Assembly: GCA_017421975.1 (NCBI GenBank)
Contig: JAFOHE010000312.1
Location: forward strand, 1 to 37,087
Origin: Pseudomonadota bacterium
Lineage (GTDB): Bacteria > Myxococcota_A > Bradymonadia > UBA4248
Reading direction: 5' to 3'
Length of the DNA stretch: 37,087 bases
A program made the translations under genes and the position numbers. The notes below the pieces were generated by a model, which saw nothing but the letters and a program-made list of their open reading frames with translations, was not told where the DNA came from and ran no database searches. Positions 1,820 to 33,020 of the stretch are shown here, one piece after another. Every line of letters begins with the position of its first letter. Position 1 is the stretch's first letter.

Positions 1820-3685
1820 ATGATAAGAAAAAAATTACGATTATTGATGATGACTGCGTTGGCAACCATGACGACATTTTCGACGGTCGCCGTGGCGGAG
1901 ACTGGAAATGGTGGAACGTCATTGCCGGAGCGGGTCAGTGCTAATGGAAAGTACGAATTTAAACCGTCCTGGAGCATCGGTATCCAGTATGGCGTGACGT
2001 TTACGGATTTGGATAATTGGAACAGGAATCTCCTGATTCCTGGTGCGACGAATACGTATGATGTTGATGTGCTTGCGAACCATGAGCTTTATGGCGAATG
2101 GTCGCCGGTAGAAGGTTTCCGGATGAGCATCTTCGGTGGTTATCAGTCACTGTACATCAAGGAAACGGGTTTCAGTTATTATTATGGTGGTATTGAACCA
2201 GCGTGGGCGGCGCGTAGGTCGTTTTATGAATTGGCTGTCGGCCTTGGTGTCGGTTATGGCGGTTCGACGGTTGATACCAACCACGGCGATATGAATGGTC
2301 ATGGCTTGATGCTTCGTCCATTTGTGGAAGCGCGTTTTTATCCGAGTGAAATTTTTGCCATCTATCTTCGCCTTGCTTTTCAGTACTACAAAGAATTCGG
2401 TCTTGAAGCGAATGACTGGGTGAAGTCAGCGGATGTGAATGGCAGCGTGGATACAGACGATCTTCATTATGCGGGGCCGAATGTATCGATTGGTGTGCGT
2501 TTTGGCAGCTTCCCAGCACCGGTTTGTGCAATTGGTGACCAAGATGGGGACGGCGTATTGGACGATGTCGATGCCTGTAACGATGTGCGTGGCGAAGCCG
2601 CATATTATGGTTGCCCGAATCCCGATGTGGATGGTGACGGATATTGTGATGCCTGGGTTGCACAGAAAGGCCTTCAGAAGGATTTCGAACCCGTATGCAT
2701 TGGCTCGGATAAGTGTCCGAACGACGCAGAGGATGCCGATGGCTTCGAGGATGAGGATGGTTGTCCTGAACCTGATAATGACAAGGACGGCATTTGTGAT
2801 CCGTGGGTATCTGAACTCGGCATGGCAGAAAAATATGCAGATGTCTGCAAGGGCGCGGACAAGTGCGCGAATGAGGCCGAAGATTATGATGATGTCACGG
2901 ATGAGGACGGTTGTCCGGATCCCGATAATGACAAGGATGGTTTCTGTGATCCGTGGGTAGCGGAACAGGGATTGGCCGAGAAATATGCGAATGTCTGCCA
3001 TGACAAGGATTTCTGTCCGTATAAGGGCGACCTTGATCCGAACCTTTATGGCTGTGGTGATCCCGATGGCGATCAGGATGGCTATTGTGAAGCCTGGGTT
3101 TATGAGAACAAGCTTGAAGGTTTGTTCCCGAAATGTCTTGGCATGGATCGATGCCCCGACGAGAAGGGTTCGGCGCCACGTGGCTGTATTCCACGACGTG
3201 TTGAAGTCACGGAAGCGGCGATTGAAATTCATGACATGATCAATTTCGATGTCAACAAGGCGACGATCAAGAAGAATTCCGATAGCCTTCTCAATGAGAT
3301 CGCCGAAGTCTTTAAGCAGAATCCCCAGATCAAGAAGGTTTCGATCGAAGGACACACGGATCTCAGCGGCAATGCCAAGAAAAATCAGAAGTTGTCTGAG
3401 AATCGTGCGAAAGCAGTCATGGATCGTCTGATCAAACTCGGCGTCGAGCCTGAGCGCATGACTTATGCAGGCTTTGGATCATCGAGGCCAGTAGAACCGC
3501 TTGCCAAGGGACAGAAAAAAGAGACGAAAGCACAGGCGGCGAAGAACCGTCGTGTTGAGTTCAACATCGTTGAGCAAGAACAAGTGAAGAAAAAAATGAC
3601 GGTTCAGGAAGCGAGAGCTGCAGGGTATCAGAAAGATCAGGTTCAGGCACTTGATAAGAATGGTAATATGATTGAGAAAAAGTGA
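1820..3685 (+). CDS. OmpA-family outer membrane protein with Cys-containing thrombospondin-3 repeats
   Basis: 621 residues; start chosen by AGGA seven bases upstream and the signal peptide that follows (about 1-26, ending AVA). Residues about 40-235 are rich in aromatic, alternating strands and look like an eight-strand-type barrel. Residues about 236-455 hold Asp-rich calcium-binding repeats (DQDGDGVLDD, then units with PDNDKDG and CDPWV), each with paired cysteines. Residues about 460-590 are an OmpA-like peptidoglycan-binding domain, with INFD, EGHTDLSG and NQKLSENRAKAV. It should tie the outer membrane to the cell wall, with the calcium repeats as a stiff periplasmic spacer. Its nearest relative is the next gene (4039-6429). 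The last 40 residues are charged and carry no known motif. Confidence 0.9.
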   Translation: MIRKKLRLLMMTALATMTTFSTVAVAETGNGGTSLPERVSANGKYEFKPSWSIGIQYGVTFTDLDNWNRNLLIPGATNTYDVDVLANHELYGEWSPVEGFRMSIFGGYQSLYIKETGFSYYYGGIEPAWAARRSFYELAVGLGVGYGGSTVDTNHGDMNGHGLMLRPFVEARFYPSEIFAIYLRLAFQYYKEFGLEANDWVKSADVNGSVDTDDLHYAGPNVSIGVRFGSFPAPVCAIGDQDGDGVLDDVDACNDVRGEAAYYGCPNPDVDGDGYCDAWVAQKGLQKDFEPVCIGSDKCPNDAEDADGFEDEDGCPEPDNDKDGICDPWVSELGMAEKYADVCKGADKCANEAEDYDDVTDEDGCPDPDNDKDGFCDPWVAEQGLAEKYANVCHDKDFCPYKGDLDPNLYGCGDPDGDQDGYCEAWVYENKLEGLFPKCLGMDRCPDEKGSAPRGCIPRRVEVTEAAIEIHDMINFDVNKATIKKNSDSLLNEIAEVFKQNPQIKKVSIEGHTDLSGNAKKNQKLSENRAKAVMDRLIKLGVEPERMTYAGFGSSRPVEPLAKGQKKETKAQAAKNRRVEFNIVEQEQVKKKMTVQEARAAGYQKDQVQALDKNGNMIEKK

Positions 3686-3706
3686 TCACCAACGTCAGCG
3701 TTTTTT

Positions 3707-3728
3707 GTGAGCCCGAATGTGGGCTCAC
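3707..3728. terminator. Hairpin after the first OmpA gene
   Basis: GTGAGCCC (3707-3714) pairs perfectly with GGGCTCAC (3721-3728) around a six-base loop, 21 bases after the stop codon. A T6 run lies on the 5' side rather than the 3' side, so as a plus-strand intrinsic terminator it is atypical. It may instead protect the transcript end. Confidence 0.4.
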
Positions 3729-3994
3729 GGATACGTGAAGCGGTGTTTGAAATTTCTTCGCAGATATGAATGATTTTCATTCACGCAATTGGATGAATGA
3801 ATCAGAATGTTTCCGAGTGACCGTAATTAGGGAAAGACGAAGGATTGCGCGATTTGTTTGGGATAGAAGAGACATAAACTTGCGCATTTTTTGAAATTGT
3901 TATAGAAGGTAACATTGGATTTTTGGCGTAACTATGGTCAAAAAGGGCCGAATTAAGTAGGACGTCTTTAACTAGAATGTGCTTTAAGCACGAA

Positions 3995-4034
3995 TGGTAT
4001 AATCTCCCGTTTAAGACGGGGTAACACAGGGAAG
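3995..4034 (+). promoter_or_regulatory. Extended -10 promoter, leader hairpin and RBS of the second OmpA gene
   Basis: TGGTATAAT (3995-4003) is a TGn-extended consensus -10 box; no good -35 box lies at the usual distance. At about the expected start of transcription, CCCGT (4006-4010) pairs with ACGGG (4016-4020) to form a small 5' hairpin. AGGGAAG (4028-4034) is the ribosome binding site for the ATG at 4039. Confidence 0.6.
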
Positions 4035-4038
4035 TAAT

Positions 4039-6429
4039 ATGCGAAAAACTTTGCGATTTATGCTCGTTGCTGCGATGGCTGCAATGACGATGTTTTCTGC
4101 CAACGCCATGGCAGATGATGGCGATCAGTCCAAACCGGCAGCTGAGAAACGCGTCAGCGCGAATGGCAATTATCAATTCCATCCGTCTTGGGGTATTGGT
4201 CTTCAGTATGGATTGACCTTTACGGAGATGGAGAACTGGAATGATTATCTTTGGAAACCTGCGAAACATAATTATTATGATGTGAATTTCGTAGCGGACC
4301 ATGAGCTCTATGGTGAATGGACGCCGGTCGAAGGTTTCCGTATCAGTCTTTTTGCCGGATTCCAGTCGCTCTACATTTCGAATCCTGGGTTTAGCTATAT
4401 TTACGGCGGTCTTGAACCGGCCTTTAGTGTACGTCGCTCGTTCTATGAATTTGCAGTCGGTCTTGGCCTCGCTTACGGTGGCTCGATTTTCGACAGCGAT
4501 TTGGGTGACATTGACGGTCATGGTCTTTTGGTTCGTCCGTTTATCGAGGCTCGTTTCTATCCGTGCGACATTTTTGCGATTTATCTGCGCTTAGCCTTCT
4601 CATACTACAAAGAATTTGGTGCTGATTTGCCGGATGATTTCAAGGGCGACAAAGACGCAGCTGATATGGACAAACTTTCGTATGCTGGTCCGAACCTGGC
4701 CCTCGGCTTCCGTTTCGGTAGCTATGCAACGCCTGTTGTCGTCGTTCCGGATACCGATGGTGATGGTGTCCTCGATGATATCGACGATTGCAAAGATGTT
4801 TCCGGCGAAGAGAAGTTCAACGGTTGCCCGAATCCCGATAGTGACAGCGATGGCGTCTGCGATCCATGGGTCGTCGAAAATGGCCTTCAGGAAGCGTTTG
4901 CAAGCGTCTGCAAAGGCTCTGATAAATGCGTTGATGGCTCCGAAGACAAAGACGGCTTCGAAGATGAAGATGGTTGCCCCGATGTCGATAACGATGCCGA
5001 TGGTATCTGCGATCCTTGGGTTGCTGCAAACGGTCTTTCCGATAAATATGCCGATGTCTGCACCGGTTCCGATAAGAGTCCCGATGAAGGTGAAGACCTC
5101 GATGGCTTCCAGGATGACGATGGAACGCCGGATCCCGATAACGATAGTGACGGTCTCTGCGATCCTTGGGTTTCCGAAAAAGGTCTTGCCGACAAATATG
5201 CTGCGGTCTGCAAAGCTGTTGATCTCTGCCCGAACTATAGCTCGACTGTTCCCAATACGTATGGTTGCGGTGATCCCGATCCCGATGGTGACGGTTACTG
5301 CGATCCTTGGGTCTACAATGAGAATCTCCAGTCCTACTTCCCGCAGTGCAAGGGTCTTGACCGTTGCCCGAACGAGAAAGGTACGGATAGCAAGGGTTGT
5401 ATTCCCCGCCGTGTTGAAGTTACCGAAGCTGCCATCGAAATCCACGATGCCATTAACTTTGCTTCCGGCAAAGCCGTCATCGCGAAAAGTTCCGATGCTC
5501 TCATCGCTGAAATCGCCGACGTCTTCAAACAGAATCCCCAGATCAAGAAAGTCTCGATCGAAGGACATACCGATCTTAGCGGCAACGCAAAGAAGAATCA
5601 GAAACTCTCCGAAGACCGCGCTAAGGCCGTCATGGATCGTCTCATCAAACTCGGCGTCGAAGCTGATCGCCTGACCTCTAAGGGCTTTGGTTCCTCGAAA
5701 CCGGTGGAACCGCTTGCTAAGGGACAGAAGAAAGAGACGAAGGAACAGGCCGCCAAGAATCGTCGCGTCGAATTCAATATCGTTGAACAGGAAGAAGTCA
5801 AAACGACGATGACTGTTCAGGAAGCACGTGCTGCTGGTTATGATCGTTCACAGGTCAAAACGTTGACGGCTGCTGAATCCGCTGCTGCTGCTGAAGAAGA
5901 AAAAGCTGCTGCCGAAAAGAAGGCCGCTGAAGAAAAAGCTGCTGCCGATAAGAAAGCTGCTGAAGATAAAGTAGCTGCTGCTAAACAGGCTGCTGCCGAT
6001 AAGGCTGAAGCCGAAAAGAAAGCTGCTGAAGAAAAGAAAGCTGCTGCTGAAAAAGCCGCTGCTGACAAGAAAGCTGCTGCTGAAAAAGCCGCTGCTGAGA
6101 AGAAAGCTGCTGCTGAAAAAGCCGCTGCCGAAAAGAAAGCTGCTGCCGAAAAGAAAGCTGCTGAAAAGGCTGCTGCTGCAGAGAAGAAAGCCGCTGATGC
6201 TAAGGCTGCTGCAGAGAAGAAAGCCGCTGATGCTAAGGCTGCTGCAGAGAAGAAAGCCAAAGCTGCTGCCGATAAAGCCGCTGCCGATAAAGCCGCTGCA
6301 GAGAAGAAAGCCAAAGCCGCTGCTGACAAAGCTGCTGCCGATAAAGCCGCTGCAGAGAAGAAAGCCGAAGAGGCCAAGAAGAAAGCTGAGGCTAAGGCCA
6401 AAGCTGCTGCTGCCGCTTCCAAGAAATAA
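4039..6429 (+). CDS. OmpA-family outer membrane protein with thrombospondin-3 repeats and a TolA-like Ala/Lys/Glu tail
   Basis: 796 residues; signal peptide about 1-26 (SANAMA). The order matches its upstream paralogue: barrel-like region (about 40-235), TSP3-type calcium repeats with a roughly 50-residue period (about 237-450), then an OmpA domain (about 455-585; GHTDLSG, NQKLSEDRAKAV). It differs in two ways. One repeat has lost both of its paired cysteines (DKS and DGT in place of DKC and DGC). After residue about 610, some 185 residues of almost pure Ala, Lys, Glu and Asp follow, predicted as one long charged helix like the middle part of TolA. The tail could span the periplasm or bind the cell wall; this is inference. 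A strong terminator follows. The two genes come from a tandem duplication. Confidence 0.9.
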   Translation: MRKTLRFMLVAAMAAMTMFSANAMADDGDQSKPAAEKRVSANGNYQFHPSWGIGLQYGLTFTEMENWNDYLWKPAKHNYYDVNFVADHELYGEWTPVEGFRISLFAGFQSLYISNPGFSYIYGGLEPAFSVRRSFYEFAVGLGLAYGGSIFDSDLGDIDGHGLLVRPFIEARFYPCDIFAIYLRLAFSYYKEFGADLPDDFKGDKDAADMDKLSYAGPNLALGFRFGSYATPVVVVPDTDGDGVLDDIDDCKDVSGEEKFNGCPNPDSDSDGVCDPWVVENGLQEAFASVCKGSDKCVDGSEDKDGFEDEDGCPDVDNDADGICDPWVAANGLSDKYADVCTGSDKSPDEGEDLDGFQDDDGTPDPDNDSDGLCDPWVSEKGLADKYAAVCKAVDLCPNYSSTVPNTYGCGDPDPDGDGYCDPWVYNENLQSYFPQCKGLDRCPNEKGTDSKGCIPRRVEVTEAAIEIHDAINFASGKAVIAKSSDALIAEIADVFKQNPQIKKVSIEGHTDLSGNAKKNQKLSEDRAKAVMDRLIKLGVEADRLTSKGFGSSKPVEPLAKGQKKETKEQAAKNRRVEFNIVEQEEVKTTMTVQEARAAGYDRSQVKTLTAAESAAAAEEEKAAAEKKAAEEKAAADKKAAEDKVAAAKQAAADKAEAEKKAAEEKKAAAEKAAADKKAAAEKAAAEKKAAAEKAAAEKKAAAEKKAAEKAAAAEKKAADAKAAAEKKAADAKAAAEKKAKAAADKAAADKAAAEKKAKAAADKAAADKAAAEKKAEEAKKKAEAKAKAAAAASKK
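5868..6426 (+). repeat. Low-complexity GCT/GCC-GAA/AAG coding repeat
   Basis: Imperfect tandem units encoding AAAEKKAAEKA-like sequence. One larger unit, encoding KKAADAKAAAE, is repeated almost exactly around 6184-6250, and another with KKAKAAADKAAADKAAAE recurs around 6255-6365. Such repeats can gain or lose units in frame. Confidence 0.85.
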
Positions 6430-11711: not shown

Positions 11712-11731
11712 GCCTTCTATATACCTTCTTG

Positions 11732-11763
11732 TCCCCCAAAGCTTTGACTTCGGGGGATTTTTT
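11732..11763 (+). terminator. Rho-independent terminator of the PEGA gene
   Basis: TCCCCCAAAG and CTTCGGGGGA form a stem with one A-C mismatch, followed by T6, about 20 bases after the stop. It isolates the PEGA gene from the riboswitch that begins about 20 bases further on. Confidence 0.8.
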
Positions 11764-11784
11764 CTTGCCTGAAAATGGCCTTTT

Positions 11785-11863
11785 GCTGACGGGGCGGTTC
11801 CCTCTGCGGAATCTGAGATTGACCCGTTGAACCTGTTCGGATAATGCCGGCGTAGGGATCAGC
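11785..11863 (+). promoter_or_regulatory. TPP riboswitch (THI element)
   Basis: The conserved TPP aptamer is recognisable throughout: closing stem GCTGA (11785-11789) with TCAGC (11859-11863), the GGGGcgg segment, CTGAGA followed by ACCCGTTGAACCTG, and CGGATAATGCCGGCGTAGGGA. CTGAGA contacts the pyrimidine ring of thiamin pyrophosphate and the GCG-rich half contacts the phosphate in known structures. Downstream, TTGCGGC (11871-11877) pairs with GCCGCAA (11898-11904). No T run follows, so control is probably at translation. The next gene on the strand is a porin-like barrel, not a thiamin biosynthesis gene. Confidence 0.93.
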
Positions 11864-11904
11864 AACGCTCTTGCGGCGTCTTGCCATCTTTACTTTTGCC
11901 GCAA

Positions 11905-11925
11905 ATGAGTGTTTGCCATGAATGA
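11905..11925 (+). other. Possible 6-residue leader reading frame
   Basis: ATG at 11905 opens a frame MSVCHE ending TGA at 11925, overlapping the porin start at 11918 in another frame and ending just before AAAGGAG (11927-11933). It could couple translation to the main gene, or be chance. Confidence 0.2.
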
Positions 11926-13282
11926 TAAAGGAGCTTATAGGCCTGTCGTTTGGCCTGTTCCACCAGATGCGATCCAGATAACACAGCACTTTCTCAAAAA
12001 GATCATTCTGTCATGGGGCGTAATTCATCTTTTTGGAACGATGATTTTCTTGTGTTTCTTTGGATTTCCTCAAAACACATTCGCGTTTGACGAATTTGAT
12101 TCGGTGCATGCACCAGCACGATTCTCGATCGAAGCCAGTGATCTGACGCTTGATATTAAAGGGCGTATGCGACTTGGATTGCATGATCTTGAAGGCGAAG
12201 GCGGGCCGGGACACGATAGCCCGACAGATACGGCAACGATTGGTACGCGTTCGCCGTTTGTTGATCTCGATAGTTTCGATCTTTCGTTTCGCGGTCATTG
12301 GAAGGAGATGCTTTGGCTCAATGCCAATGTGTCTTTTATGACGGATGAGACGTACCTTTCTGCCATCTATTTTGAGTATAAACAGGAGATGACATCGTGG
12401 TTTAGCCATGGGGTCGAGGTCGGTTATCAAACGCCTGTCGTGGCGACAGATCGTCGGACAGTGCGTTATCCCTTTATCGCGACAAATTATTGGCGTTATC
12501 CGGAGTACCATTTGGCGTATGCAGCCAAGTTTTCGCTGGCCACTGAAACGGCGCTCTCTTTTTACGGCTCATTAGGCATTATGCGGCCTTTGAAAGCTGA
12601 GCCCATTCATAGTTCTTCTGAATACCGCGGAACGTTTAGCACAGTTTCGTATAGTTCGGCCAAAGCGTTTTCAGGCAATGCGCCGACGGGGACAGCTTTG
12701 CTACGCCTCAATACGTATGGCGCAAATGTCGAAATCTTCGGGAGTATTGGCAAAATAAGCATGAAAGAGGGGATTCAGACGCTTGTCAGCGATTTTCCGT
12801 ATTACCGCTATTTGCCTTCATTTGATGCGTCAACGCAAGATGCTTTATCTTATTGGTATGGCGGAAGAATCGGCTATAACGGGCTTGGCCTTCACGTTAT
12901 GGGGGAAGTGATTGCTTCCCATGAACATTTGCTCGACCGCGTCGGTATGTATGTGCAAGCTGGTTATACGCTGTCACGCGATGAGGCGTTTTGGTTTAAT
13001 AGTATTGAATTTGTCACGCGCTATGAGCGCACGTGGTTACGCAATTCAACGGATTTGATTGACGACAGTCACGCTTTTCGAAGTCCTGAAACGACGAATG
13101 CTGTCAGTTGGGATTATCAGGTGCTGACGCTTGCGCTGAGATCAAACATTGTGTCGGATTTCGTATCTCTGCGCATTGAATACACCTTCTTTTGGGAAGA
13201 AAATGGCATCCCGGCGCTTGAAATCAATGATTCGGCTGTGAAGAACAACGAGCTTTTGCTTCAAATTGAAGCGAGATATTAA
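11918..13282 (+). CDS. Outer-membrane porin-like beta-barrel under TPP riboswitch control
   Basis: 454 residues from ATG 11918. No family recognised with certainty. An uncleaved-looking N-terminal stretch of about 30 residues precedes KKIILSWGVIHLFGTMIFLC, a hydrophobic segment ending near NTFA that fits a signal peptide with an unusually long front part. The mature part is made of alternating aromatic strands (LTLDIKGRMRLGLHDL, LWLNANVSFMTD, SHGVEVGYQT, AKFSLATETALSFYGSLGIM) and ends EARY, as trimeric or monomeric porins often do with an aromatic last residue. There is no plug domain or TonB box, so it is not a TonB-dependent receptor. With the riboswitch in front, the simplest reading is passage of thiamin or a precursor across the outer membrane. 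A good AAAGGAG (11927-11933) lies just inside the chosen start, so the start is uncertain. Confidence 0.75.
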   Translation: MNDKGAYRPVVWPVPPDAIQITQHFLKKIILSWGVIHLFGTMIFLCFFGFPQNTFAFDEFDSVHAPARFSIEASDLTLDIKGRMRLGLHDLEGEGGPGHDSPTDTATIGTRSPFVDLDSFDLSFRGHWKEMLWLNANVSFMTDETYLSAIYFEYKQEMTSWFSHGVEVGYQTPVVATDRRTVRYPFIATNYWRYPEYHLAYAAKFSLATETALSFYGSLGIMRPLKAEPIHSSSEYRGTFSTVSYSSAKAFSGNAPTGTALLRLNTYGANVEIFGSIGKISMKEGIQTLVSDFPYYRYLPSFDASTQDALSYWYGGRIGYNGLGLHVMGEVIASHEHLLDRVGMYVQAGYTLSRDEAFWFNSIEFVTRYERTWLRNSTDLIDDSHAFRSPETTNAVSWDYQVLTLALRSNIVSDFVSLRIEYTFFWEENGIPALEINDSAVKNNELLLQIEARY

Positions 13283-13290
13283 CACACGTG

Positions 13291-13441
13291 TTGGGGGCGT
13301 TGCGGGGGATGCCCCCGCAGAGGGGGTAGCGACGTATTGGCGCGGGCTATGTCGCCTGCGCTCCATACGCCCTGCGGGCGCGGCTATCTCGCTCATGCTC
13401 AATACGCCGCGCCAATAGACGCGTAGGGGGAGACATCCCCC
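13291..13441 (+). repeat. Composite intergenic element, copy 4, with two further bulged hairpins nested inside
   Basis: Hairpin A TGCGGGGG/CCCCCGCA (13301-13319). The outer hairpin B runs from GTAGCGAC + GTATTGGCGCGG (13327-13346) to CCGCGCCAATA + GACGC (13408-13423). Nested inside are GGGC-TATG...CATA-C-GCCC (13344-13372) and GGCGCGGC-TAT...ATA-C-GCCGCGCC (13377-13413), both with the family's unpaired C. Hairpin C is GGGGGA/TCCCCC (13426-13441). The element fills the gap between the porin and the lipoprotein gene. Confidence 0.85.
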
Positions 13442-13479: not shown

Positions 13480-14808
13480 ATGAAAAAATGGTTCATTTGG
13501 TCGCTTTGTCTGTTTGTTTTCGCCGCTTGTTCAGATGATAACAATGAGAACGATGATTCTGGAAACAAGCCGAACAATGATATTGGTTCCGTTTTGACGC
13601 TTGAATCGGCGGGTACGATGACCGTGGGAAAGGACGATAATGCCGAGATTATCAGGGCATTGCCGGGCAAATCGGGTGCCATATTGATTTCGTCGAAGGC
13701 GCATCGGATCACGCGATTGACGTTTGATGATGCCAAAGGCATTGCGGTCGCTGAGCAGGCGACCAAAGAGCTGGCTGAGGATGACGAGTTTACGAGCGGT
13801 CAGCTGTATGATGAGCACACGATGCTTGTGACGCATACGATTCTTGAAAAAGCGTCGGATGCTTCAGACGCGGCCATTACTGGATGTAGTGGTGAAATTG
13901 TGGCGCTCAGTCTTGAAACGGGCAGTGCCTTTGGGAGTGAAATTGCGCGGGAAACGGTAGGTGCGATGCCCGATGCTGTTGGACTTTCTCCAGATAAAAA
14001 GTGGGCTGTGTCGTGCGATGAACATGATTCAGAAGCCAAAGCATGGGGCAAATGCTCTGTGGAGACGATTTTGCCGAGTGTGACGATTCTGGATATGGCC
14101 AAAGGCGTGACTGGCATGAAGGCTGTGGCAAAAATCCGGTTTACGGAGAACAAGCTTGGACCGCGTGAGCCTGAATATGCCGCGATTGCAAGCGATAACG
14201 ATACTGTCATGGTGACGCTTCAGGATTCGGATGAAGTGGCCATTTTTAAGATTTCGGAGGTGATGGCACAGTCGGCTGGTGACAATGGCATCATCGAACT
14301 GGATGAATCGGCTGTAAAAATCGTGGCTTTGCCGACAAATGATGCGCAGGCGCAGCCATGGCCGGATGGCATTGTGTCGTTCGATATCAGTGGTAAATCT
14401 TATTTCGTGATTGCCGGTGAATGGAATGATACGATCATTACGCTGGATACCGACGGAAATGTCGTTTCGAATATACAGATTAAGGAAAGCGAGGTGCCGT
14501 CGAATTATCCGTGTGTTAAAAATGGATCGGATCCTTTGTATAGCCCGGATTCGCTTGCAGTATTCACGAAAAATGGAAAGACGTTTGTGGCGGCGACGCT
14601 TCGCCATGCGGGGGCTGTCATCGTCTATGACTATTCGTCGCCGGCTTCGCCGAAGTTCAGTGCGATTGCCAAAGTCGGGGCCAATGATTCGACGGCGTGT
14701 TCAAAAGACGGTTCCTCTGTTCGACCGGAAGGAATTTCATCTGACGGAGAGCTGATTTGGGTGGCCAACGAAGGAGATAGTTCTGTGAGCGTCGTACGCA
14801 TTCGATAA
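13480..14808 (+). CDS. Beta-propeller lipoprotein
   Basis: 442 residues; AAAGGAAA seven bases before ATG. A lipoprotein signal ends with FAAC (Cys17), then an Asp/Asn-rich linker. The rest shows repeated four-strand blades typical of YVTN/WD-like propellers: PDAVGLSPDKKWAVSCDE, YAAIASDNDTVMVTLQDSDEVAIFKI, DGIVSFDISGKSYFVIAGEW and RPEGISSDGELIWVANEGDSSVSVV. The final motif resembles the PEGISF...VANE pattern of choice-of-anchor I propellers. Cysteines occur in pairs that may form disulfides. It is likely an outer-membrane-anchored surface or periplasmic protein; no ligand or reaction can be assigned. It stands alone between repeat copy 4 and the DnaA-box cluster. Confidence 0.75.
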   Translation: MKKWFIWSLCLFVFAACSDDNNENDDSGNKPNNDIGSVLTLESAGTMTVGKDDNAEIIRALPGKSGAILISSKAHRITRLTFDDAKGIAVAEQATKELAEDDEFTSGQLYDEHTMLVTHTILEKASDASDAAITGCSGEIVALSLETGSAFGSEIARETVGAMPDAVGLSPDKKWAVSCDEHDSEAKAWGKCSVETILPSVTILDMAKGVTGMKAVAKIRFTENKLGPREPEYAAIASDNDTVMVTLQDSDEVAIFKISEVMAQSAGDNGIIELDESAVKIVALPTNDAQAQPWPDGIVSFDISGKSYFVIAGEWNDTIITLDTDGNVVSNIQIKESEVPSNYPCVKNGSDPLYSPDSLAVFTKNGKTFVAATLRHAGAVIVYDYSSPASPKFSAIAKVGANDSTACSKDGSSVRPEGISSDGELIWVANEGDSSVSVVRIR

Positions 14809-14890
14809 TCCACAGAGTTATCCACAGTTTTTCACAGAAGCGTTCTATTTATCCACAGGTTATCCACAATAAGTGGTAGATTTATCCACA
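14806..14890 (+). other. Cluster of six DnaA-box-like 9-mers, helically phased
   Basis: TTATCCACA, the high-affinity DnaA box, occurs exactly at 14818, 14849, 14860 and 14882. Near matches TAATCCACA and TTTTTCACA occur at 14806 and 14828. All read the same way, and the start-to-start steps are 12, 10, 21, 11 and 22 bases, close to whole turns of the helix. The array sits between the lipoprotein gene and lolC/E. It may be an origin, a DnaA-titration site or a DnaA-controlled promoter. Confidence 0.8.
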
Positions 14891-15010
14891 ACCGAAAACG
14901 TGATGAAGACTTTCTGCGTCTGTGCGTTGCTCTTGGAAGCAAAACGGCGTAAAAGCGTTCGTCAATTTTCGGGCGTGGGTAGGATTCGCCCAATGGAGTG
15001 GAAGAAAAAT

Positions 15011-16741
15011 ATGCGTTTTGAGGACTTTGTCGGTCTGCGTTACCTCATGGCCAAGCGTGACCGGAACATGCTTAGCGTCATCACGCTCATTAGCATTGGC
15101 GGCGTGTCCGTCGGCGTTATGGCACTTATCGTCGTTCTGAGCGTCATGGGTGGGTTTGAAGCGGATTTTCGGGAAAAGATTATCGGTTCCAAAGCCCACG
15201 TCGTCGTATCGGCTGACGAAGGTTATCTCGAAAATTATAACGCCATTATGGATAGAATTCGTCGATTGGATCGCGTTGAGGGCGTCAATGCTTATGTGGA
15301 AGCAGAAGTCATGCTCAATTCGCCGACGAATTTGCAAGTCGCCATTTTGCGCGGCATCAATAGCCATGAAATCACGACGACGACGAAACTTGCGGAGTAT
15401 ATGAAGGAGGGCGACCTCTCATACCTTGAAAATGTGGATGCTTTGCCGTCGATATCCATGACAGGTATAGAAATCAAACGCGGAAATATGACGTTTCAGA
15501 GTGACCCTGAAGACGGTGCCGTGACGCCGGAAAGAAAAAAATCCTTTGCGCGTGCCGGTGCCAAAGCATCGCTGGCTTTCGCGGGCAGCAAGCATGGCAC
15601 ATGGATAGGACAACGCGATGCTTCGGATGGCGCCGAAAAACACGCGGAAACTGTGGGGCCGGATATGCCGCCTGAAATCGTGGTTGAACCTGCGCCTAAA
15701 GCAGAAAAACATGCGGAAATCGTGGCCGATTATCCAGCGGATTTGTCCGAAGAAGACCGGCTTTTGCTTGAAGAAATTGGGGAAGATCGTTGGGTGTCGG
15801 ATGCACCATCAAGAAGGCCTATGGCTTTGCCTTCGACCGAATCTTATGACCGTGAGCCAACGGCGGAAATCGTGGGACGCGCATCGACAAAACGAACGAT
15901 GAAGGCACTGCCCGGGTTGTCCGAAAATGATGTCGGTGTGCGACGCGTGGGGGGCATTATCCTGGGAAGGGAACTGAAAATGAATCTCGCCATGTATATG
16001 GGGGGCGAGCTTCAGGTCATGAGCCCGACGGGGGATGTCGGTCCCGCTGGAGGATTGCCAAAAAGCAGACCCTTCAAACTCGTTGGCTCTTATTATTCGG
16101 GGATGTTCGATTTCGATGCCAAAATGGGTTATATCTCGCTCAAAGATGCACAAAGTCTTTTGGGCATCGGCGATCGTGTGACGGGGATTGATGTCAAATG
16201 CGTGAGTATCGAAGACAGTATTGCTGTCCGGAATGTCATACGCGAAGAATTGAAGGATCTCAAAAACGTCCGTGTCGATGATTGGATGACGCTCAATTCG
16301 AGCCTCTTCAGTGCGATTATGCTCGAAAAAGTCGCCATGTTTACCATACTCACATCGATTATCCTCGTCGCATCGTTCAATATCCTTTGCCTTTTAATTA
16401 TGATGGTCATTGAAAAGGCACGCGAGATTGCCATCTTCAAAGCCATGGGCACGACGACGGCGAGCGTTGTCCGAATGTTCGTAATTCAGGGCGCGGCCAT
16501 TGGACTGCTAGGCACTTTTATTGGCGCTGTCCTGGGATTGGGGCTGTGTTACCTCATCTCAAGCCTGGGACTTAAACTGCCAGGCGGCGTCTATTATATT
16601 ACGCAGATTCCGGTCATGGTCGAACCTCTTGAGGTCGTCATTATCTGTTGCGCTTCCATCTTCATCAGCTTGCTTGCAACGGTTCTGCCAAGTATCATGG
16701 CGGTGAAACTCGATCCCGTCGAGGGGTTGCGCTACGAGTAA
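15011..16741 (+). CDS. lolC: LolC/LolE-type lipoprotein-releasing ABC permease with a large periplasmic insert
   Basis: 576 residues from ATG 15011, chosen for GGAAG six bases upstream and the conserved opening MRFEDFVGLRYL. Together with LolD it pulls lipoproteins from the inner membrane and passes them to LolA. There is one N-terminal membrane segment (about 20-48: SVITLISIGGVSVGVMALIVVLSV) and three near the C-terminus (about 440-570), the FtsX-type layout. The periplasmic domain between them is split after SISMTGIEIKRG by about 150 residues of low-complexity acidic and Pro/Ala-rich sequence (about 157-308) containing EKHAE twice, before GGIILGRELKMNLAMYMG resumes the family pattern. Usual length is 400-420. 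Only one permease gene is present, so it may act as a homodimer (LolF-like). lolD follows. Confidence 0.88.
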   Translation: MRFEDFVGLRYLMAKRDRNMLSVITLISIGGVSVGVMALIVVLSVMGGFEADFREKIIGSKAHVVVSADEGYLENYNAIMDRIRRLDRVEGVNAYVEAEVMLNSPTNLQVAILRGINSHEITTTTKLAEYMKEGDLSYLENVDALPSISMTGIEIKRGNMTFQSDPEDGAVTPERKKSFARAGAKASLAFAGSKHGTWIGQRDASDGAEKHAETVGPDMPPEIVVEPAPKAEKHAEIVADYPADLSEEDRLLLEEIGEDRWVSDAPSRRPMALPSTESYDREPTAEIVGRASTKRTMKALPGLSENDVGVRRVGGIILGRELKMNLAMYMGGELQVMSPTGDVGPAGGLPKSRPFKLVGSYYSGMFDFDAKMGYISLKDAQSLLGIGDRVTGIDVKCVSIEDSIAVRNVIREELKDLKNVRVDDWMTLNSSLFSAIMLEKVAMFTILTSIILVASFNILCLLIMMVIEKAREIAIFKAMGTTTASVVRMFVIQGAAIGLLGTFIGAVLGLGLCYLISSLGLKLPGGVYYITQIPVMVEPLEVVIICCASIFISLLATVLPSIMAVKLDPVEGLRYE

Positions 16742-29017: not shown

Positions 29018-29040
29018 GGGGCGGGTCTAATCACCGCCCC
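29018..29040. repeat. GGGGCGG hairpin at cassette boundary, copy a
   Basis: GGGGCGG (29018-29024) pairs with CCGCCCC (29034-29040), and the loop contains the TAG stop of the upstream reading frame on the minus strand. Near-identical hairpins lie at 30536-30556 and 30604-30624. Confidence 0.8.
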
Positions 29041-30529
29041 CAATGCAGTAGGAGTAGCCATCCTCATTCGTGACACATTCTTTGTCGCAATTAAACGTGT
29101 AAGGCTGAATCGATGAGGCATCTGCTCGAAAATAGAGCGTCAATTGATTGTCATCACATTTCACTAAAGAAGGTATAGGATTGGTTTCATCCATAATTTC
29201 ATACGAGCATGCAGCGTATTGGACGGATGATTTTATATAAGTATTGCACAAATTTGATTTTTTACAGTTTTCAATGGTTTGTACGTACTTCTTCTGGGCT
29301 GGATCGTAAATGCAGTTGACAGCCTGAGCTTCGTCACAAAGTCCGCCTGGTCTGTCGCATTCTGGAAGTCTACAGCCCCCTGTGTTGCTGTCACATCCAT
29401 CACTGCCAAGGATATTACAATACATATGGTTTTGCATAACATAGTCATATTCATTATAATACTATGAGAACGAATATGCATTGCCATGCTCGTCTTCCAG
29501 ACAAAAACCACTTTCTATATAAACACCCAATCGATCATGACCAAAAACATCTTTGGCTTGAAGACACATGCCAGAATTAACAGTTTTGTTATCGTTATAT
29601 GTTACAGAAAATAAACCATTCTCTTTTTCGCATAAATGATAGCAATCCGTTTCTTCATTGATCGTGCCACAAAAATATGTGCTCGAAGGACAATATTGAA
29701 TCATAACATTGTATGATTCGTCGCAATATTTGAGAAACATATTATTACTTTCATCCGTGAGACACTCTTTGGAACAGTATCCGCGGCATTTGCCTTCGAT
29801 GCACATATTGTCCAGGTATGTGCTCGTTGTACAGACTTTTCCACCGTTGTCAGCGCATCCGCCGCAGTTCAAATTGTCATTCATCGTATTGACTTCGCAT
29901 CCATTTTCTGGATTATGATCGCAGTCCCCAAAGCCATCACGGCAAACGATCTGGTCGTTCTCGCAGGACAAAACGTTGAGATTTTCCGCATCAATGCACA
30001 TGCCACCGCATGCGGTCAGACCGGACGGACATTCCGTCACACATTCGCCGTTTAAGCATGCGATTTCCTTCAAATGATTATTGCCACAGGTGTAGCCACA
30101 GCTGCCGCAGTGGTTTGGCGTGCGCATGAGATTCGTTTCACACCCGTCTGCAGGATCGTTGTTGCAGTTGTCATAGCCTTTGGCACAGGTCAATGTGTTG
30201 GCTTGGCAGTTGACGATATGGGCGTCACGAAGACTGAGACATTGATCGCCACAACGTAATTCTCCTTCACGGCAACCATTTGCGCTTATACATGCTCCGT
30301 AATTGCAAAAGTTGCCACCTTCTCCGGTACATACATGGCCACATTCGCTGCAGTTGTTCGGATCGTTGAAACGGAAAATCTCGCATCCGTCATCAATACT
30401 GTTGTTACAGTCGATATACCCTAGTGTACATGTGAGCTTTTTGTCGGTGTATGTTTCCACGTGGGCTGCCGCCAGATTCATTTCGCACTCGTCATCAGGC
30501 ATTCCGTTGCAGTCGGCATAGCTCTGCAT
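29027..30529 (-). pseudogene. Partial duplicate of the Cys-rich lipoprotein gene, interrupted by an amber codon
   Basis: It repeats about the last 500 residues of the intact gene at 30612-33020 with high identity, for example CRDGFGDCDHNPENGCE and LTCTLGYIDCNNSIDDGCEI in both. It has no signal peptide and begins inside a repeat unit (MQSYADCNG). At 29462-29464 a TAG stands where the intact gene has TTT (FSFYYNEYD becomes FS-stop-YYNEYD); the frame is otherwise open to its natural end at 29027. At least one conserved Cys has changed (VETYTDKK for VETCTDKK). These changes fit relaxed selection. It could serve as a template for gene conversion into the intact gene. Confidence 0.85.
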
Positions 30530-30535
30530 ACGTAT

Positions 30536-30624
30536 GGGCGGGTCTAAGCCCCGCCCTCTTCTTTCGCCCTCCTCTTCCGTTTCCGTCGCCTTCGGTCATG
30601 TATGGGCGGGTCTAAGCCCCGCCC
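30536..30624. repeat. Paired GGGCGGG hairpins between intact gene and partial copy
   Basis: GGGCGGG/CCCGCCC occurs at 30536-30556 and again at 30604-30624, each preceded by TAT, 68 bases apart. The second contains the stop codon of the intact Cys-rich gene in its loop. With the copy at 29018-29040 they mark every cassette junction of the locus. Confidence 0.8.
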
Positions 30625-33020
30625 CCTTTGCAGTAGGAGTAGCCATCGGCATTCGTGACACATTCTTTCTCACAATCAAACGTGTATTGTCGAATGAGTA
30701 AGTCGTCTGCTGGAATATAGAGCGTTAATTGATTATCGGTACATTGCCCTAATGAAGATATGGGATCGGCCAGACCGTTAATACGATATGAGCATGCAGC
30801 GTACTGGACGGATGATTTTGTATAGGTATTGCACAAATCCTTTGTTTTACAGTTCTCAACGGTTTGTACGTACTTTTTCCGAGCTGGATCATAAATGCAG
30901 TTGACAGCCCGTGCTTCGTCACAAAGTCCGCCTGGTATGTCGCATTCTGGAAGTATACAACTCCCTGTTTCACTGTCACATCCATTGCCGCCAAAGACAT
31001 TGCAATACATATAGTTTTGCATAATATGGTCATACTCATTATAATAAAATGAGAACGAATATGCATTGCCATGATCGTCTTCCAGACAAAAACCACTCGC
31101 TATAGAAATGCCAAGTTGATCATTACCAAAAACATCTTTGCCTGGAAGACACTTACCAGAATCCAGGGTTTTGGTATCACTATATGTTACAGAATATAAC
31201 TCATTCGGTGTTTCGCATAAATGATAGCAATCCATCTCTTCGTTGATTGTGCCACAAAACTGTGTGCTGGATGGACAATATTGAATCATGACATTGTATG
31301 ATTCATCGCAATATTTGAGAAACATATTGCCATTTTCATCCGTGATACACTCTTTGGAACAGTATCCACGGCATTTTCCTTCGATGCACATATTGTCCAG
31401 GGTCGTGCTCGTTGTACAGACTTTTCCACCGTTGTCAGCACATCCGCCGCAGTGCGCATTATCGTTCATCGTATTGATTTCACATCCGTTTTCAGGATTG
31501 TGATCGCAGTCTCCAAAGCCATCACGGCAAACGATCTGGTCGTTTTCGCAGGACAGAACGTTGAGATTCTCCGCATCGATGCACATGCCACCGCATGCGG
31601 TCAGGCCAGATGGGCATTCCAGTACACATTCGCCGTTAAAGCATGCGAATTCCTGTGAATCATTATTTCCGCAGGTGTTGCCACAGCTGCCACAGTGGTT
31701 TGGGGTACGCATAAGATTGGTTTCACAACCGTCTGCAGGATCGTTGTTGCAATTGTCATAGCCTTTGGCACAGGTCAATGCGTTGGGTTGGCAGTTGATG
31801 ATATGGTCGTCACGAAGACTGAGACAATGCTCGCCGCAAAGTAATTCTCCCTCACTGCAACCATTTGCGTGTACACATGTTCCGTAATTGCAAAAGTTGC
31901 CCTCTTCTCCGGAACATACATGGCCGCATTCGCCGCAGTTATTTGGATCGTTGAAACGGAAAATCTCGCATCCGTCATCAATACTGTTGTTACAGTCGAT
32001 ATACCCTAGTGTGCATGTGAGCTTTTTGTCGGTGCATGTTTCCACGTGCGTCACCGTAAGGTTCATTTCGCATCCGTCATGAGGCATGCCGTTGCAGTCG
32101 GCATAGCCTTGTTCACATGTGAGCACTTCGTCGGTGCATGTTTCCACGTGCGTCACCGTAAGATTCATTTCGCATCCGTCATGAGGCATGCCGTTGCAGT
32201 CAGCGTAGCCTTGTTCACATGTGAGCGCTTCGTCGGTGCATGCTGCCACGTGGATTGCCGTAAGATTCATTTCGCACCCGTCATCAGGCATTCCGTTGCA
32301 GTCGGCGTAGCCTTGTTCACATGTGAGCGTTTCGTCGGTGCATGTTGCCGCGTGGAGTGCCGTAAGATTCGTTTCGCACCCATCATCAGGCGTTCCGTTG
32401 CAGTCGGCATAGCCTTGTTCACATGTGAGCGCTTCGTCGGTGCATGCTGCCGCGTGGAGTGCCGTAAGATTCGTTTCGCACCCATCATCAAGTGTTCCGT
32501 TGCAGTCGGCATAGCCTTGTTCGCATGTGAGCGCTTTGTTGGTGCATGTTGCCGCGTGGGTCGCGATAAGATTCATTTCGCATCCGTCATCAGGCGTTCC
32601 GTTGCAGTCGGCATAGCCCAGGCGACAGACGGGGGTGTCGTTTTTACAGGAAATGATGTGTGCCTGTTCGGTATTTACGCAATTGCCGCCACAAAGCAGT
32701 TCGCCGTCAGGACAGATCGAACAGTATCGCCTGCCGCTGTCGTCTTTCCGGCAGTTGGAAAAGGGAGCATTGCGTTTGCACGAACTATATTCAAAGGAAA
32801 GGAAAATGTCATTTCTGATGGTTGCGTCAGTGATGCCGCAGCACGTTTCGGAGGATGTGCAGGCTTCCTGCAGACAGACGCCGTCGTTGTATTCGATGTA
32901 GCTGACCTGTGTTTGCTCATCAGCGCACGTGATAGCATCGAATGGCTCTTCGAGTGAGCATGAAGCGAACATGCATGATATTAATATTAAGCAGTAGATT
33001 CTATGATGTATTCCAAACAT
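30612..33020 (-). CDS. Cys-rich repeat lipoprotein
   Basis: 802 residues; GGAGG eight bases before the ATG. Lipoprotein signal ends MFASC. After a Cys-rich head (CSICPDGELLCGGNC) come six units of 34 residues with the pattern LTCEQGYADCNGxPDDGCExN and a seventh, divergent one (LTCTLGYIDCNNSIDDGCEI). Later comes a second type of Cys motif (CGECGHVCSGEEGNFCNYGTC; CGSCGNTCGNN; CGGCADNGGKVC) and a C-terminal domain of about 200 residues ending CKGGGA. The DCN...DGCE repeat is typical of secreted and surface proteins of Myxococcota and related groups, and each unit probably closes its own disulfides. The likely place is the cell surface, as an adhesin or shield; no ligand can be named. The upstream region has 40-bp repeats, and two decayed partial genes lie downstream. 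Confidence 0.85.
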   Translation of the reverse strand: MFGIHHRIYCLILISCMFASCSLEEPFDAITCADEQTQVSYIEYNDGVCLQEACTSSETCCGITDATIRNDIFLSFEYSSCKRNAPFSNCRKDDSGRRYCSICPDGELLCGGNCVNTEQAHIISCKNDTPVCRLGYADCNGTPDDGCEMNLIATHAATCTNKALTCEQGYADCNGTLDDGCETNLTALHAAACTDEALTCEQGYADCNGTPDDGCETNLTALHAATCTDETLTCEQGYADCNGMPDDGCEMNLTAIHVAACTDEALTCEQGYADCNGMPHDGCEMNLTVTHVETCTDEVLTCEQGYADCNGMPHDGCEMNLTVTHVETCTDKKLTCTLGYIDCNNSIDDGCEIFRFNDPNNCGECGHVCSGEEGNFCNYGTCVHANGCSEGELLCGEHCLSLRDDHIINCQPNALTCAKGYDNCNNDPADGCETNLMRTPNHCGSCGNTCGNNDSQEFACFNGECVLECPSGLTACGGMCIDAENLNVLSCENDQIVCRDGFGDCDHNPENGCEINTMNDNAHCGGCADNGGKVCTTSTTLDNMCIEGKCRGYCSKECITDENGNMFLKYCDESYNVMIQYCPSSTQFCGTINEEMDCYHLCETPNELYSVTYSDTKTLDSGKCLPGKDVFGNDQLGISIASGFCLEDDHGNAYSFSFYYNEYDHIMQNYMYCNVFGGNGCDSETGSCILPECDIPGGLCDEARAVNCIYDPARKKYVQTVENCKTKDLCNTYTKSSVQYAACSYRINGLADPISSLGQCTDNQLTLYIPADDLLIRQYTFDCEKECVTNADGYSYCKGGGA
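31990..32635 (-). repeat. 102-bp tandem coding repeat, six close units
   Basis: Six consecutive 34-codon units of the Cys-rich lipoprotein, nearly identical in DNA (for example GTTGCAGTCGGCATAGCC recurs every 102 bases on the plus strand). Unit number can change by recombination without shifting the frame. Confidence 0.9.

Follow-up and report, generated by a model that had tools for sequence, protein, structure and literature searches.

The stretch of DNA analyzed here, hereafter the window, comprises 37,087 nt of contig JAFOHE010000312.1 (assembly GCA_017421975.1; Myxococcota_A, Bradymonadia, UBA4248), from a 3.6 Mb draft genome with 5% contamination. The locus of interest lies on the forward strand and encompasses a TPP riboswitch aptamer (positions 11780–11875), a 42 nt leader that carries a hairpin and extends from the aptamer to the start codon (11876–11917), a gene for a 454-residue protein modeled by AlphaFold2 as an outer-membrane β-barrel without a plug (11918–13282, ATG start; an alternative GTG start is located at 11909), and a gene for an acidic lipoprotein predicted to fold as a seven-bladed β-propeller (13480–14808). 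The aptamer matches the Rfam family RF00059, the only family detected by cmscan across the whole window, over the full length of the model (1–105), with 63.9 bits (E = 1.8e-10) against a gathering score of 54.3 bits, and is the single TPP site of the draft genome. The first-pass annotation, made from the sequence alone, recognized this riboswitch but took it to be nearly complete and to start at 11785; the aptamer is in fact complete and begins at 11780. The preceding gene, which encodes a PEGA-domain protein, is closed by a strong intrinsic terminator on the same strand (11731–11764; stem at 11731–11758, then the T-run TTTTTT; −14.5 kcal/mol, z −2.73), so that the switch belongs to the barrel gene downstream. 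Both the separating terminator and this assignment had already been proposed in the first-pass annotation.

Within the 11876–11917 leader, no intrinsic terminator was found; transcription termination was accordingly rejected as the expression platform in the window, and a translational platform is probable. The leaders are short (5–63 nt), and in several relatives (loci L069, L070, L073, L100, and L102) the Shine-Dalgarno sequence is paired in a hairpin adjacent to the start codon. From the combination of these three features, we infer that TPP represses translation. The ribosome-binding site of the window barrel gene itself is weak, and the stability of the whole folded leader is not unusual (z −0.58). 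Many relatives carry a promoter of the form TTGAC-N17-TAnnnT located 3–6 nt 5' of the aptamer, and therefore the switch appears to begin its own transcript there; a promoter immediately 5' of the window aptamer was tested and was not significant.

The barrel protein contains a signal peptide and ends with an aromatic residue. By sequence, it could not be assigned to any curated porin family: searches of Pfam, NCBIfam, and the PDB sequences produced no relatives, and scanning 14 family members singly against Pfam at E 1 yielded only one chance hit (E 0.16). The AlphaFold2 model, built with 14 aligned homologs (mean pLDDT 79.6, pTM 0.77), shows the signal helix followed by 16 membrane-spanning strands (counted by hand in the DSSP output), with both ends on the periplasmic side, long outer loops on one side of the barrel, mostly short turns on the opposite side, and no plug domain, that is, the predicted topology of a 16-strand porin. 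Among solved structures, Foldseek matched the model to OprP, OprO, OmpT, PorB, and OmpC (E 1e-10 to 1e-7), at TM-scores of about 0.5 and identities of about 10%. The best of these matches, OprP (2o4v) and OprO (4rjw), are 16-strand, substrate-selective porins for phosphate and pyrophosphate, respectively; with such low similarity to them, no common sequence family, and a different mode of regulation, the barrel, as modeled, is a porin by fold that lies outside the named families. The first-pass annotation had described a barrel that lacks a TonB plug and belongs to no known family, and the model together with the Pfam and NCBIfam searches supports this description. A TonB-dependent receptor was rejected given the absence of a plug, the 16 strands, and the lack of any Pfam profile match. 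Kinship with the BamA-type protein P0007 encoded downstream was rejected as well, profile comparison having revealed none. By far the most conserved loop of the barrel is L1 (HDLxGxGGPxxDSxTDTxTIGTRS), with 83% mean identity versus 50–61% in the other loops, and invariant arginines and glutamates map to the inward faces of the strands (faces assigned from hydrophobicity). Both features are as expected of a selective pore.

The protein encoded by the second gene carries a lipoprotein-type signal, MKKWFIWSLCLFVFAAC-S, and its AlphaFold2 model (mean pLDDT 88.6) contains 28 strands, by hand count, arranged in seven blades. The family is highly acidic, with net charges from −26 to −56, and its invariant residues include 15 acidic and 2 basic ones, along with two cysteines. 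The profile of the choice-of-anchor I surface proteins (NF038117; PF22494) is only weakly similar (58.9 bits, E 4.2e-16, where the curated cut-off demands 300 bits), and the propeller differs from these proteins in having a lipoprotein anchor and a fixed barrel partner. There is also weak relatedness to lactonase-like propeller models, and the best fold matches are streptogramin B lyases. In two relatives from the gut (G003 and G006), the propeller is circularly permuted, with the second half preceding the first within one open frame (L045:12786–14189 and L046:479–1888). The gap between the barrel and propeller genes, often 10–20 nt in relatives, is unusually long in the window, where it is filled by a GC-rich imperfect inverted repeat (13335–13417; 27-nt arms, 74% complementary); neither a T-run terminator nor a terminator-like site was found in this gap.

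Downstream of the propeller gene, between it and a gene for a LolC/E-like permease (14873–16741), four perfect DnaA boxes (TTATCCACA) are located at 14818–14890. The whole window contains six such boxes, compared to 0.24 expected; none were seen beside the barrel-propeller pairs of relatives. Near 18 kb, the GC skew reverses its sign, in a direction that is not the one expected of an origin. In the permease, the MacB-type and FtsX domains are separated by roughly 300 residues that match no family. Elsewhere, the window includes two adjoining OmpA-domain proteins that are paralogs of each other (621 and 796 residues; 1820–6429) and, on the minus strand, three related consecutive open reading frames (29027–33020) that could represent either one broken gene for a repetitive lipoprotein or a tandem family.

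We identified 21 distinct barrel loci: 13 in a sequence search of 38 relatives, each in a different genome; 2 further ones in a scan of GTDB genome contigs, where most records are MAGs assigned to Myxococcota or deltaproteobacteria, with animal guts and the rumen among their sources; and 6 in a survey of the phylum that covered 379 genomes, 19 of which encode the barrel. The genomes compared are mostly draft MAGs, some of them incomplete, and share ancestry, so that the counts of presence and absence given here and below are not independent. At all 21 loci, a TPP switch is located directly 5' of the barrel gene (17 switches score above the gathering score and 4 score 49.3–53.2 bits), and none of the 13 barrel genomes among the 38 relatives contains a second TPP switch. 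The outcome that the first-pass annotation had named as refuting its interpretation, homologs without the riboswitch, thus did not occur. That interpretation pointed in the right direction but missed the second conserved gene: at each of the 20 loci that are not truncated by a contig end, the propeller gene is the next one after the barrel gene. Among the 379 genomes, strong matches to the propeller were confined to barrel genomes, of which 18 out of 19 had one and the remaining one is truncated; in the other genomes, any matches are weak and partial. Given that the barrels are only 31–63% identical to that of the window, the linkage has persisted through considerable divergence. Where sister families lack the barrel, their TPP switches are found 5' of thiC or, in one case, about 20 nt 5' of a gene for a luciferase-like monooxygenase, an unusual target (G013, L061:5968–7284).

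Judging by their gene content, the genomes with the pair appear to be auxotrophic for thiamin. We scored thiC in all 21 barrel genomes and thiE, thiamin pyrophosphokinase, ThiL, and PnuC-type carriers in 13. In none of the 21 was thiC detected, in contrast to 11 of the 25 barrel-less relatives (p 0.006 across the 38 relatives), and ThiE was found in 1 of 13 barrel genomes versus 20 of the 25 barrel-less relatives (including one sub-threshold match). Both thiC and thiE are also absent from some barrel-less relatives (for example, G017 and G025), so that auxotrophy alone does not demand the pair. ThiE joins HMP and thiazole, the two precursors of thiamin; because the known pathway cannot join them without this enzyme, an imported compound should hold both halves, so that intact thiamin or its phosphates, rather than the precursors, are the expected substrate. 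All 13 genomes lack thiamin pyrophosphokinase (PF04263), whereas ThiL, which converts thiamin monophosphate to TPP, is retained in 11, and both genomes without it are incomplete (82% and 89%). This combination points to thiamin monophosphate, or to thiamin together with an unrecognized kinase, as the internal form. A thiamin kinase encoded beside thiL was considered and rejected, the neighbor being a methyltransferase-like protein. No inner-membrane thiamin carrier of a known type was found consistently in the barrel genomes: the PnuC type is present in 1 of 13 (G020), and the ThiB type never scored above the cut-off.

We consider it probable that the locus is a two-gene, TPP riboswitch-controlled operon that imports intact thiamin (thiamin, TMP, or TPP) across the outer membrane of auxotrophic Myxococcota. 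The acidity of the propeller suits a cation such as thiamin, which would be in line with a capture function. The alternative that best withstands the evidence, although we regard it as unlikely, is that the propeller is an enzyme, for example, a phosphatase or pyrophosphatase acting on TPP or TMP on the outer side of the inner membrane, with the barrel admitting the trimmed product. Propellers include many hydrolases and lyases, the streptogramin B lyases among the fold matches and the weak kinship with the choice-of-anchor I and lactonase models are compatible with catalysis, and the invariant acidic clusters could bind a metal; however, no enzyme family was detected at its cut-off, no catalytic motif was identified, and in genomes that lack the pyrophosphokinase but keep ThiL, retaining the monophosphate would bring a greater benefit than its removal. 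Even then, the pair would still be a thiamin-acquisition unit, with a lipoprotein that catalyzes instead of capturing.

The similarity of the barrel to porins, many of which are non-specific, and the lack of a plug or an obvious ligand site could also suggest a general-purpose porin or envelope protein, with the control by TPP mirroring the metabolic state of the cell rather than serving thiamin transport. This seems improbable given the invariable association with the TPP switch (21 of 21 loci) and with the same lipoprotein (20 of 20 untruncated loci), the co-occurrence of the barrel with the absence of thiC, and the conservation of L1, which, at 83% compared to 50–61% in the other loops, would be unusual for such a porin. 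The first-pass annotation allowed for a porin for either thiamin or a thiamin precursor; the first option is the main direction in which our results point, but import of HMP or thiazole, even though TPP switches govern precursor transporters such as thiXYZ in other bacteria (PMC545781), is highly improbable given that ThiE is missing in 12 of the 13 barrel genomes checked.

The closest parallel to the barrel-propeller pair is vitamin B12 uptake in Bacteroides, where BtuB barrels are paired with the riboswitch-controlled lipoprotein BtuG, a seven-bladed propeller that, in the case of BtuG2, uses a negatively charged face to bind the cationic vitamin (PMC6143338, PMC10404256). As in the BtuB-BtuG system, the locus described here combines a vitamin riboswitch with an outer-membrane barrel and an adjacent propeller lipoprotein, the seven-bladed fold of the latter being predicted. 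The differences are substantial: BtuB is TonB-dependent and contains a plug, whereas the barrel here is modeled as a 16-strand porin devoid of a plug; the ligand sensed by the switch is TPP; and the propeller has no sequence match to any solved BtuG (such as 3DSM), none being retrieved at E 1 or below in a profile search against all PDB chains. The two systems are alike in architecture, but the present pair does not belong to the BtuB-BtuG group. Two other outer-membrane proteins regulated by TPP riboswitches have been linked to thiamin uptake, namely, OMthi (BT2390) of Bacteroides thetaiotaomicron (PMC5613172) and omr of metagenomes (PMC2211319); both are TonB-dependent or BtuB-like, unlike the plug-less barrel, and no propeller partner is mentioned in the passages on them. 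A search of the open-access literature revealed no earlier TPP-controlled porin or thiamin-capture propeller lipoprotein. The description that fits the locus best is that of a variant form of vitamin uptake across the outer membrane under riboswitch control, in which both the barrel family and its partner are new.

Under the thiamin import scenario that we favor, low cytoplasmic TPP would allow the switch to permit synthesis of the barrel and the propeller lipoprotein, and high TPP would turn expression off, most likely by masking the ribosome-binding site. The acidic lipoprotein, presumably anchored at the external surface of the outer membrane and perhaps in complex with the barrel, would gather the scarce cationic vitamin, which would then diffuse into the periplasm via the selective pore of the plug-less 16-stranded barrel. 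The new class of vitamin channel envisaged in the first-pass annotation is plausible on this basis. The stronger proposition, that a TonB-independent, plug-less channel and a propeller capture lipoprotein, both under TPP control, constitute, for thiamin, an analog of BtuB-BtuG that evolved independently and the first vitamin-specific porin pair of its kind, appears to us to have about an even chance of being correct.

The current view allows scarce vitamins two ways across the outer membrane, namely, unspecific diffusion through porins or TonB-driven receptors. If the proposed function is confirmed, a plug-less channel marked by a riboswitch and accompanied by a capture lipoprotein would represent a third outer-membrane route for a vitamin, and two unnamed protein families would gain a specific, testable function. 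The pair would also provide a case convergent to BtuB-BtuG for addressing the role of propeller lipoproteins at outer-membrane pores, and would suggest how thiamin-auxotrophic Myxococcota of the gut and other environments compete for vitamin B1.
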